Source: a bacterium (GTDB lineage: Bacteria; UBP15; UBA6099; DSWB01). Taken from it: 6,067 nt of DNA. Position numbers and translations under genes: made by a program. The notes beneath the pieces were generated by a model. It saw only the letters and a program-made list of their open reading frames with translations, made no database searches and was not told where the DNA came from. Below are positions 2,814-6,067 of this stretch, one piece after another. The stretch lies in contig JAGUYV010000094.1 of the NCBI GenBank assembly GCA_020061125.1, forward strand, positions 1 through 6,067, read 5' to 3'. Within the stretch, counting starts at the first letter, position 1. Each line of letters starts with the position of its first letter.

Positions 2814-2981
2814 ATGATGAACAGCCACGAAGAAGTGTATGAGTTCAAAGGCCGCAAAGAGAGCATCAACTGGCGCAAAGACAGCCACGGCAACATCTTC
2901 ATGTGCCCGGCGAGCGCGAAGGACCTGTCCGAATGCGTGAGCGAGGACATTGTGGATTTGACCTACTCGCGCGGCGGCTGA
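2814..2981 (+). CDS. Small unrecognised 55-residue protein
   Basis: I do not recognise the family. The ORF is supported by context: an AAAGAGGTG Shine-Dalgarno (2798-2806) lies seven bases before ATG 2814, a TATACT box lies upstream and a strong hairpin downstream. A second ATG follows at once (2817); the spacing favours 2814. The product is soluble and charged: a basic middle (KGRKESINWRKD, about residues 12-23) is followed by an acidic C-terminal part, with no signal peptide or membrane segment. Two cysteines, C31 and C41, sit ten residues apart, the first in a CP pair. This is too few for a classical four-Cys zinc ribbon, though a dimeric metal site or a disulfide is possible. It appears monocistronic: SDR ends 149 bases upstream and tspO converges downstream. 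It could be a small regulatory or adaptor protein; function unknown. Confidence 0.72.
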   Translation: MMNSHEEVYEFKGRKESINWRKDSHGNIFMCPASAKDLSECVSEDIVDLTYSRGG

Positions 2982-3126: not shown

Positions 3127-3594
3127 TTACAAGGCATTCATGCGCGCGATGGTGAAGGTGAGGTATGAGGCGAATGCGGTCCACGCGGCATAGGGCGCGA
3201 GCAGCAGGGCCGCGGTTTTTGATATGGGCCAGATCAGAAGCAACAGGGCGATGACCGTGGCTTCGAGCACCAGCGCGTGGACGAAAGCCGCAGACAGCAT
3301 GCCACGGGCGAAGAAAACATAGCTCCATGTCGCGTTCAAAAACGCATTGATCGCGAACAGGGCGATGATCGCGCGGAACGCGTCCGGCCTGGGCCAGGTG
3401 TTCCATACGATGATGGCGGATGCCGCGGTAAGGATGTAGATCACGGTCCAGACCACGCCGATGATCGATCCGGGGGGCGTCCACGGCGGCAGGTTGATGG
3501 TGCGGTACCAGTCCATGCCCGATGAAGTGAAACTTCCCCCCACTGCTGACACGCACACAGCAATCACCGGAATCACGATATAGTTCAGCTTCAT
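3127..3594 (-). CDS. tspO: TspO/MBR family tryptophan-rich membrane protein
   Basis: 155 residues, the normal length for bacterial TspO, the homologue of the mitochondrial translocator protein. The family sits in the membrane as five helices and binds porphyrins and sterol-like ligands; bacterial members are linked to tetrapyrrole handling, light-dependent porphyrin breakdown and stress responses. Family marks seen: WYRTINLPPWTPPG (29-42), VVWTVIY (47-53), NATWSYVFF (87-95) and the last-helix YAAWTAFASYL (135-145) ending in ARMN. Five hydrophobic segments can be placed at about 5-23, 43-64, 73-95, 101-122 and 127-150. The conserved aromatic residues W38, W49, W90 and W138 are present. ATG 3594 is chosen because GGAGGG (3606-3601) lies six bases before it and the family homology begins there; an open extension to 3696 runs into the upstream gene. 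It is the second gene of an operon, 17 bases after the DUF2177 gene. Confidence 0.95.
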   Translation of the reverse strand: MKLNYIVIPVIAVCVSAVGGSFTSSGMDWYRTINLPPWTPPGSIIGVVWTVIYILTAASAIIVWNTWPRPDAFRAIIALFAINAFLNATWSYVFFARGMLSAAFVHALVLEATVIALLLLIWPISKTAALLLAPYAAWTAFASYLTFTIARMNAL

Positions 3595-3611
3595 GGGATT
3601 CCCTCCGGAAT

Positions 3612-4031
3612 TTATTTTGCGGCCGCGGCGGCTGCAGCGGCTGACACGGCGCACAGGAATGCGCCCCAGGCCATGTCCGTGGCGGACAGGGACCATGTCC
3701 AGCCCTTGAGCGTGGCCATGTTCGTAAGATCGTAGATGCCATAGGAAACCAGGCCGAACAGCGCGCCCCGCACAGCCGCGCGTCCAACGCGCCCTGCTGC
3801 GGGACCGCCGTCGTCGCGCGCCCCAAAAGCCAGAATCCCAGTGACCAGCAGCACATAAACCAGAGCTGCGGCCGTCCAGTCTGGCTCGATGGCGCCGCCT
3901 GTGCCGCGCGCCAGTCCGGCGAGCTTTTCACGGTAATAATCTTTCATCACAACGCCGAGCCAGAGTGCGTCCAGGGCCAGGAGCGCGCCCGATGCCGCCA
4001 TAAATTTTTTGAGCATGCGTGCGTGTTTCAT
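3612..4031 (-). CDS. DUF2177 family membrane protein
   Basis: 139 residues with four hydrophobic segments (about 10-28, 52-70, 84-100 and 117-138). Family marks are LDALWLGVVMKDYYREKL (20-37) and the strongly conserved YGIYDLTNMATLKGW (97-111), followed by D119 in TDMAWG. These acidic residues (D21, D31, D101, D119) next to or within helices are typical of the family. No biochemical function is established for it to my knowledge. From general recall, homologues occur near genes of photo-oxidative stress and lipid modification; I could not verify this here. The start at ATG 4031 is set by GGGGGAGA (4045-4038), six bases upstream; a longer open frame to 4214 has no such site. The protein ends in eight alanines and a lysine, an odd low-complexity tail. 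It is the first gene of the operon with tspO, suggesting both proteins act in the same membrane process. Confidence 0.88.
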   Translation of the reverse strand: MKHARMLKKFMAASGALLALDALWLGVVMKDYYREKLAGLARGTGGAIEPDWTAAALVYVLLVTGILAFGARDDGGPAAGRVGRAAVRGALFGLVSYGIYDLTNMATLKGWTWSLSATDMAWGAFLCAVSAAAAAAAAK

Positions 4032-4178
4032 GATTGTCTCCCCCCGGTATGCGGCGCGTTGCCGAGTTACAGCCTTGAACGGTTCTCTTGACATATTAAA
4101 CACAACCGCGGGTGAAAAGTGCCATGGCCGAGAATTATTGTCTGCGCCAAGGCTCATAAAAACTTTGATTTGCATGGA

Positions 4179-4208
4179 TTGCCTGTCATGGCGCGGATCG
4201 GGTATACT
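4179..4208 (+). promoter_or_regulatory. Sigma-70-like promoter for the degenerate GGDEF gene
   Basis: TTGCCT (4179-4184) and TATACT (4203-4208) are separated by 18 bases, predicting a start near 4215 and a leader of about 35 bases. This is the only promoter in the window with a visible -35 hexamer. It lies in the 218-bp gap (4032-4249) shared with the divergent DUF2177-tspO operon. In that gap I find no convincing minus-strand promoter; a TTTAAT on the minus strand around 4097-4102 is the best but has no -35. Confidence 0.55.
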
Positions 4209-4249
4209 CATCACAGAACTGTTCCGAAACCATATCAGGATGTGCCGCC

Positions 4250-5326
4250 ATGGGCCAACGCAGCAATGAGGAAATCATATATATAACATTGCGCGGGATC
4301 ATGCTGGCTTGCGTGGCCGTGGCTGTGGGCGCGGAGTGGCTTGCTGCGCCGGGGGAAGCCCTGTCTCTGGCTATATATGGCATTGTGTGGGCCGCGCTGT
4401 CGTCGGCGGCGCTGTTGAGCTTGTTCGGGCGCGGACTTTCGTTCATCGCGCAATGGGCGGACATTGCGCTGCTGGGCTGGATTGCGTGGCACAACGGGGG
4501 CAACGCCAGCCCTGTGGCGTTTCTGCTGCTGCCCCAGACTGCGGCCATGGCCCTGTTCTCGGGCCGCGCCGTGGCTCTGTTCAGCGCCGTGGCGCTCATG
4601 CTTTTCCATTGGTACCTGGAGCACCTGTCCGGCCGCCCGGGATTCTATTCCGTGGCCTTCTGGTTCGCGTATGGGTTCGCCGTGCTTTGGCCCGCATATT
4701 TCGCCATGGCCGGGCAGAACATCCAGTCTCTGCGCCTGCGCCTCACGGCCCTTCAGGAACGCGAACGCTATCTGGAACGCGCCCTGTCCGCCATCGAGAA
4801 CAAATACGAAAAAAGCTCGGTGGTGGACGAAGTCACCGGGCTGAACAACTTCCGCTATTTCCGGGACCGCATTGACAAGGAAGTCAAGCGCGGGCTGCGC
4901 CAGAAGTACATCTTCAGCCTGTGCATTCTCACGGTTGACGATCTGGAGATTTACGAGAAAAAGTTCGGCGCGGCCGAAAGGGATCTGGCCCTGGGGCGCA
5001 TCGCGCGGCAGGTGATCAAGGCCATGCGCGACACGGACCTTGTGGCGCGGTTCCAGAACAACGGGTTTGCGTTTCTGCTGCCGGACACCGAGCCGCGCAG
5101 GTCCGTGGTGCCTGCGGTGCGCCTTCGGGACAAAATCACAGCCCTGCAGTTTGGAACCGAACACAACTTCCACTTCAACATCAGCATCGGGGTGGCCGGA
5201 TTCCCGTCCGACGCGGACGACATGGCCGGATTGATCAGCGCGGCCACGGCGGCGCTGCACCGCAGCGCGGCGCGCGGCGCAAATCAGATCACCCTGGCCT
5301 CGTCGCTGTTTCGCAATATTTCCTGA
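4250..5326 (+). CDS. Membrane protein with degenerate GGDEF domain (putative c-di-GMP receptor)
   Basis: 358 residues. The first ~155 form an integral membrane sensor with about five or six hydrophobic segments (12-32, 38-59, 65-80, 88-103, 107-124, 132-153). A short coiled linker rich in Leu, Arg and Glu follows (158-187), then a GGDEF-fold domain starting at DEVTGLNNFRYF (193-204). The domain is degenerate: the signature RYGGDEF is replaced by RFQNNGF (267-273), the first metal-binding Asp is T228, and the nucleotide-binding Asn/Asp positions are E236 and K237. The fold ending is well kept (SIGVAGFPSDADD, then AALHRSAARGANQI). The I-site RxxD is retained as R260-D-T-D263, exactly five residues before the signature position. 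Diguanylate cyclase activity is therefore not expected; c-di-GMP binding, as in other degenerate GGDEF receptors such as PelD, is plausible. AGGA (4237-4240) precedes ATG 4250 by nine bases. Confidence 0.88.
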   Translation: MGQRSNEEIIYITLRGIMLACVAVAVGAEWLAAPGEALSLAIYGIVWAALSSAALLSLFGRGLSFIAQWADIALLGWIAWHNGGNASPVAFLLLPQTAAMALFSGRAVALFSAVALMLFHWYLEHLSGRPGFYSVAFWFAYGFAVLWPAYFAMAGQNIQSLRLRLTALQERERYLERALSAIENKYEKSSVVDEVTGLNNFRYFRDRIDKEVKRGLRQKYIFSLCILTVDDLEIYEKKFGAAERDLALGRIARQVIKAMRDTDLVARFQNNGFAFLLPDTEPRRSVVPAVRLRDKITALQFGTEHNFHFNISIGVAGFPSDADDMAGLISAATAALHRSAARGANQITLASSLFRNIS

Positions 5327-5350: not shown

Positions 5351-6067
5351 TCAGCGGCGCGGCTGCAAATCCGCGAGAACTTCGCGCATGGTTTCCACCA
5401 TGCCGTCGTCGCGATACAGAGTCGCGCTCCACTTGAGTCCGGGAATGGCGCGCGTGTAAGTGTCCCAGTCGCGCTCCCACTGGTTTGCGTATGCAAAGGC
5501 TTTAGCGCGGTCCGTTTCGGCGCCGCTTTCCTTCCACCGGCAGTAGTATAGATACGCGGCCGCATAGCTGCGCAGAACCCGCGCCAGGGCCAGTTCGTAC
5601 TCCAGGGACTGGACCGCGGACTGGCGCAGGTCCGCGGGCGCGGACAAATCTTTGGCGATGCCGAGCATGTCCTGGATCAGCAACACGGCGTCTTCCTTTT
5701 CACGCACCATGTGATCCACGCTCGCCGCGGCGGCCGTGTAGATTTTACGCAGGGGGCCGCTGCCTTTGATGACATCGTCGCGCACCCAGTTTTCGTTGGG
5801 CATCCAGGGGTCGCCCTTGGCCTGTGCGTATGCCTCGAAATACATGAGCTTGCGCACGGCCTCCGTGGACATTGCCAAAAGGGCCGCGATTTTGTCCGCA
5901 TCCTCGGCGCCGAAGGTGAGCGCGCCCCATTCTCGGGCCAGGTCTCCGGGGTCCAGGGCAGGATTCCAGGCCAGGTGCGCGGCGGCGTAGATGTTGGCCT
6001 GGTTCCAGAGATCGGTTTTGGGATAGGGGCCGTCCCAGCCGCCGCCGTGGTGCCAGTTCCATGCGCC
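5351..6067 (-). CDS. GH67-like glycoside hydrolase, C-terminal part (5' end beyond window)
   Basis: The frame is open from the right edge to a TGA at 5353-5351, giving the last 238 residues of a larger protein. Near the edge is WNWHHGGGWDGPYPKTDLW, then NQANIYAAAHLAWNPALDP (22-40) and LAREWGALTFG (43-53). This Asn/Gln-Ala-Asn, LAWNP, REW...TFG pattern matches my recollection of the C-terminal region of family 67 alpha-glucuronidases and related polysaccharide-degrading enzymes. A MPNENWVRDD motif follows, then an all-helical tail rich in Ala, Leu and Trp. The catalytic residues would lie upstream and are not visible. The tail differs from the GH67 ending I remember, so it may belong to a related but separate family. 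A TTG or ATG inside the frame (5878, 5872) is not taken as the start because homology continues to the edge. It converges on the GGDEF gene with only 24 bases between stops and no obvious terminator. Confidence 0.5.
   Translation of the reverse strand, partial: GAWNWHHGGGWDGPYPKTDLWNQANIYAAAHLAWNPALDPGDLAREWGALTFGAEDADKIAALLAMSTEAVRKLMYFEAYAQAKGDPWMPNENWVRDDVIKGSGPLRKIYTAAAASVDHMVREKEDAVLLIQDMLGIAKDLSAPADLRQSAVQSLEYELALARVLRSYAAAYLYYCRWKESGAETDRAKAFAYANQWERDWDTYTRAIPGLKWSATLYRDDGMVETMREVLADLQPRR

Follow-up and report, generated by a model that had tools for sequence, protein, structure and literature searches.

A degenerate GGDEF protein of the candidate phylum UBP15 that probably acts as a membrane-anchored c-di-GMP receptor

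Gene and domain architecture

The analyzed window, by which we mean the whole stretch of 6,067 nucleotides, carries on its forward strand a gene for a membrane protein with a degenerate GGDEF domain (ORF 4250-5326, +; RDTDLVARFQNNGF; Table 1). Codons 260-273 of this ORF, which correspond to window positions 5027-5068 (+), read R260-D-T-D263-L-V-A-R-F-Q269-N-N-G-F273. On the reverse strand, the genes at 3127-4214, which encode a TspO/MBR protein beside a DUF2177 membrane protein, are divergent from the GGDEF gene, and a frame at 5351-6067, cut by the end of the window, is convergent with it. The latter encodes the C-terminal portion of a protein that weakly matches the C-terminal model of glycosyl hydrolase 67 (31.8 bits). 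A further ORF of 55 aa at 2814-2981 (+) has no Pfam match above the cut-off and is without relatives in the remaining genomes of the order.

The Pfam GGDEF model (PF00990) matches residues 191-346 of the protein with 84.9 bits (E 6.6e-24; curated cut-off 23.8). A preliminary description of this DNA had proposed a multi-helix N-terminus, in agreement with which about six membrane helices are predicted there by hydropathy and, at low pLDDT, by an AF2 model. This N-terminal region (residues 1-160) shares 20-25% identity with its orthologs, and the Pfam matches that it shows (6TM_PilS, CRIM) are weak, lie below the cut-off and were left unused. A search of the protein for a GAF domain gave no Pfam match, residues 160-190 being only a short helical linker, and the model has an unbroken helix at 133-187, likewise of low confidence. 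The AF2 model, which was built with six sequences, has a pLDDT of 62 overall and of ~70-87 over most of residues 200-350, the membrane part being poor. Its domain superimposes on c-di-GMP-bound PleD (2wb4) with a Z of 22.7 and an rmsd of 2.0 over 164 residues (VIA-align), and c-di-GMP-bound GGDEF domains are among its top structural matches (Z 22-23). As modeled, the domain of the window protein has the GGDEF fold.

Table 1. Features of the receptor gene, in window coordinates
Feature	Position	Strand	Basis
Whole gene: membrane protein with degenerate GGDEF domain, 358 aa	4250..5326	+	ORF and translation, Pfam GGDEF, orthologs
N-terminal region, about six predicted membrane helices, residues 1-160	4250..4729	+	AF2 helices at low pLDDT; hydropathy
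Putative signaling helix / coiled-coil linker, residues 160-190	4727..4819	+	inference; AF2 model
GGDEF domain	4820..5287	+	PF00990 match; structural alignment (VIA-align)
R214 = PleD R313, fourth I-site residue, from partner subunit	4889..4891	+	alignment; role PMC7288161
T228 replacing metal-binding Asp (PleD D327)	4931..4933	+	alignment
E236-K237 replacing conserved Asn-Asp (PleD N335-D336)	4955..4960	+	alignment
RxxD I-site core R260-x-x-D263 (PleD R359, D362)	5027..5038	+	alignment
Degenerate GG(D/E)EF signature Q269-N-N-G-F273	5054..5068	+	alignment
R291 = PleD R390, third I-site residue	5120..5122	+	alignment; role PMC7288161, PelD mutants PMC7112168

Comparison of the active site and I-site with PleD

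We aligned the window protein to PleD, whose GGDEF reference sequence was confirmed to be identical to the PDB chains. The alignment is gapless through the motif region at an offset of 99, with T228 standing at D327, E233 at K332, E236 at N335, K237 at D336, Q269-N270-N271-G272 at G368-G369-E370-E371, and R260/D263 at R359/D362. We take D327, K332, N335, D336 and G368-E371 of PleD to have catalytic or substrate roles, and K442 and R446, which according to the alignment are likewise replaced in the window protein, to be its phosphate-binding residues. The hallmarks of a diguanylate cyclase are missing: the GG(D/E)EF signature has become QNNGF, the metal ligands D327 and E370 have given way to T228 and N271, and the substrate Asn to E236. 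The replacement of the first metal-binding Asp by T228, as previously described, is confirmed by this alignment. The companion claim that the substrate Asn/Asp pair is lost (E236, K237) stands insofar as N335 and D336 are both replaced, but in PleD the second residue that binds guanine is D344 rather than D336, and its equivalent is kept in the window protein as D245, being an Arg in all relatives.

The RDTD motif (260-263) lies five residues before QNNGF (269-273), as noted earlier and as the ORF translation shows, and this arrangement is a hallmark of I-site c-di-GMP receptors with a degenerate GGDEF domain; two further I-site arginines are present, namely R291 (=R390) and R214 (=R313). In bound PleD, one subunit contributes R359, D362 and R390 to the c-di-GMP site, and the neighboring subunit contributes R313 (PMC7288161). 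As RxxD occurs in ~53% of GGDEF domains and a degenerate signature in 24% (PMC3974145), the presence of both in one protein is unremarkable and the case rests on its relatives.

An order-specific family with an invariant I-site

Each of the other six genomes of the order (candidate phylum UBP15, UBA6099) encodes the protein, with full-length matches in five and a truncated one in the sixth (G003). In the latter, lack of the gene can be ruled out, as its 5' part was found beside FapA, cut by a contig end. A contig scan with the single protein gave no match, and a scan with the alignment recovered the order mates. With the full-length profile, members of the order score 521-665 bits, versus 133 bits for the best outside match, which covers the domain only; among the 386 genomes searched the protein family is restricted to this order. 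In a tree of 74 GGDEF domains it forms a single clade (support 100/100) that spans three families.

The catalytic residues are replaced in all five complete copies from relatives (SDTQF, SDNQF, GDNQF), which rules out QNNGF as a private oddity of one genome, since the orthologs are degenerate in different ways. The four independent lineages carry the signatures QNNGF, SDTQF, GDNQF and SDNQF, with RDTD, RNTD, RTTD and RDTD, respectively, as their RxxD motifs. Conservation of RxxD in homologs with a varying signature, which had been proposed earlier as a check, is precisely the pattern that emerges. The equivalents of R313, R359, D362 and R390 of PleD (R214, R260, D263 and R291) are the same in every one of the six complete sequences.

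For a quantitative comparison we considered positions conserved at 85% or more in 51 canonical GGDEF domains. Not one of the 10 metal, substrate or signature positions survives in every one of the four independent lineages, and 11 of the 25 other conserved positions do; the I-site positions on this list are all kept, with a count of 4/4 once R390, which is R in 80% of the canonical set, is added because the structure names it. The contrast between I-site and catalytic positions (Fisher p 0.001) is description rather than proof, four independent lineages being few for the conservation argument. Position 390 is R or K in 57 of 58 canonical domains with RxxD versus 3 of 9 without it (67 domains; p 6e-6), so that R390 marks a working I-site rather than the fold. 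I-site residues are common in the ancestors, and their retention could in part reflect inheritance and a structural role, though R390 behaves otherwise.

The GGDEF domains of three species are identical in amino acid sequence, with 23-28 synonymous differences per pair and zero nonsynonymous ones; the membrane part of the gene has a dN/dS of 0.13-0.20 in the same species. Canonical GGDEF domains of these genomes have dN/dS values of 0 to 0.11, and as one family of them also has a dN of 0, this value indicates constraint but not its cause, and argues against decay only. The degenerate domain is as constrained as working GGDEF domains, and decay is excluded for the relatives. The earlier suggestion of selection rather than decay thus agrees with both the strong purifying selection (dN 0) and the four invariant I-site residues.

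Other degenerate GGDEF-like proteins were encountered in the order. One is a second, partly degenerate family with the signature GADEF (549 aa in G001, with a middle part that looks GAF-like by eye), which no longer carries RxxD; R390 is missing as well from two of its three members. Another is a response-regulator-like protein of 304-316 aa with a strongly degenerate GGDEF-like C-terminus (GGSCF in G001), found at L102 1212-2150 (-) and with matches in G002, G003, G005 and G006.

Gene neighborhood and signaling context

In the relatives the receptor gene lies between a divergent gene for a 617-aa FapA protein and a downstream gene on its own strand for a protein of 879-902 aa, which combines an N-terminal match to TMEM260-like O-mannosyltransferases with C-terminal TPR repeats. 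In the f3 genomes the receptor and glycosyltransferase genes are separated by a 3-nt gap or overlap by 4 nt. An operon with a glycan synthesis gene is seen in the relatives; the window's receptor gene instead adjoins the TspO and DUF2177 genes, and the FapA and glycosyltransferase genes of this genome lie elsewhere. Its assembly is fragmented (4.1 Mb in 513 contigs, 79% complete), and on contig C356 (6473-8750) the FapA ortholog, which is 60% identical, stands head to head with the start of the glycosyltransferase, 178 bp away, with no receptor gene between the two. The remainder of the glycosyltransferase is probably encoded by a frame truncated at the end of contig C108, judging from matching lengths and alignment ends, the two contigs being unjoined. 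FapA matches number about 14 in the window genome, seemingly many for a beta-solenoid family.

Canonical GGDEF proteins and PilZ domains occur in all seven genomes of the order, which makes the presence of c-di-GMP likely. Six of the seven lack EAL phosphodiesterase domains, though canonical GGDEF and PilZ domains are common, and breakdown of c-di-GMP in this order probably uses another family such as HD-GYP.

Functional interpretation

Taken together, these observations suggest that the window protein is probably an enzymatically dead, membrane-anchored GGDEF protein that serves as a c-di-GMP receptor through its I-site. Such a membrane receptor had been one reading in the preliminary description, and it gains support from the invariant four-residue site, the purifying selection and the match of the model to c-di-GMP-bound GGDEF domains. 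We infer both c-di-GMP binding and a switch of the protein upon it. A c-di-GMP dimer would be bound by R260, D263 and R291 of one subunit together with R214 of its partner, and would thereby bridge two GGDEF domains and fix the dimer in one orientation; the helical linkers would then change their own orientation and relay the switch to the membrane part. The output in the relatives may be the activity of the linked TMEM260-like glycosyltransferase, by a mode of control like that of PelD and PssE.

Several other readings have to be weighed against this one. The domain might be a dead scaffold that dimerizes and passes a signal from the membrane on to a partner protein without any nucleotide, with its I-site residues kept for structure; there is a precedent in CdpA of V. 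cholerae, which needs its degenerate GGDEF domain but not c-di-GMP (PMC3974145), and full retention in the family extends to R366 and other residues that are not ligands. However, R390 is lost in six of the nine canonical domains without RxxD and is hence dispensable for the fold, yet it is kept here in every lineage, and the GADEF family of the same order has lost RxxD and mostly R390 as well, which makes a scaffold unlikely. We consider it considerably less probable still that the altered A-site senses another nucleotide, as YybT/GdpP does with ATP. Degenerate GGDEF domains with other ligands do exist (the YybT ATPase, PMC3974145), and the GdpP GGDEF model gives a weak match to the window protein (16 bits, below the cut-off), but the A-site positions differ between lineages and show no shared new motif, and the residues that are conserved as a cluster are those of the c-di-GMP site. 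A sensor for another nucleotide, which had been offered earlier as an alternative, accordingly finds no support.

Continued synthesis of c-di-GMP despite the odd signature is hardly credible. VCA0965 (AGDEF) and ECA3270 (SGDEF) are indeed active (PMC3974145), but they alter the first signature residue only, whereas the window protein lacks the two metal ligands (D327, E370) as well as K332, N335, the two glycines of the signature and K442/R446, and the lineages differ in what has replaced them. Nor is there much to recommend the idea of a former diguanylate cyclase that is decaying into a pseudogene-like relic, which we regard as highly improbable: the degenerate signature and the position of the window copy outside the operon of its relatives would fit such a history, but the frame is open in all complete copies, these form one old clade across three families, and the dN/dS of 0 for the domain in three species refutes decay for the relatives.

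If the protein is a c-di-GMP receptor, as we favor, its gene linkage in the relatives suggests by analogy that it may control the TMEM260-like glycosyltransferase. In the window genome, control would be in trans or directed at a different target, because the receptor gene is not beside that of the glycosyltransferase. More tentatively, it is conceivable that c-di-GMP acts through this receptor to control directly a bacterial enzyme related to the TMEM260/TMTC O-mannosyltransferases, a TPR protein with multiple membrane passes, and so gates protein or envelope glycosylation, with the FapA-type protein acting in the same system; we regard this as a possibility that is rather doubtful at present.

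With these observations an uncultured candidate phylum gains an order-specific family of putative I-site c-di-GMP receptors, whose signature can be read directly, in that the four ligand residues are kept and the active site is lost. The conserved link to a TMEM260-like enzyme names a concrete candidate target for c-di-GMP that is not one of the known polysaccharide synthases, and the separation of receptor and enzyme in one family offers a natural test of their joint working. Three things appear unreported, namely the lineage, the retention of all four signature residues throughout an order, and the association with the TMEM260-like enzyme. Within the literature available to us, a search for c-di-GMP with protein O-mannosyltransferases gave only an unrelated review, and one for bacterial work on DUF2723 glycosyltransferases or FapA/DUF342 found none.

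Comparison with known systems

Dead GGDEF receptors that keep their I-site are an established kind, PopA being among them, and the receptor principle itself is already known from PelD, PssE, CdgA and PopA. The canonical diguanylate cyclase PleD of Caulobacter shares with the window protein the GGDEF fold and the same four I-site residues, but it keeps a full active site and its I-site serves feedback inhibition. CdgA of Bdellovibrio bacteriovorus, in the portions of its report on which we draw, is described as a protein without cyclase activity that binds c-di-GMP at ~2 micromolar and has an altered signature (GVNEF) with RxxD 5 residues upstream; in contrast to the present family, it is a polar protein acting in prey invasion, and these portions describe no glycosyltransferase operon (PMC3271064).

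PssE of Listeria monocytogenes (Lmo0531) binds c-di-GMP with a Kd of 0.79 micromolar, has a degenerate signature (DKDDA) with RxxD five residues upstream, as in the window protein, and is encoded in a polysaccharide synthesis operon without having an enzymatic role (PMC4125290). The present proteins differ from it in lineage, sequence and operon, their neighbors in the relatives being a TMEM260-like TPR glycosyltransferase and FapA. PelD of Pseudomonas aeruginosa and Bacillus cereus is likewise a membrane protein with a degenerate GGDEF domain, and controls glycan synthesis (PMC7112168). It has a GAF domain between the membrane part and the GGDEF domain, which is absent from the window protein and rules out identity with PelD; a PDB sequence search with the family profile matched no PelD entry. 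The two nevertheless share RxxD and a downstream Arg at closely similar distances, with a spacing of 32 for R363/D366/R395 of B. cereus PelD and of 31 for R260/D263/R291 of the window protein, and in the former an alanine at R363, D366 or R395 abolishes c-di-GMP binding (PMC7112168).
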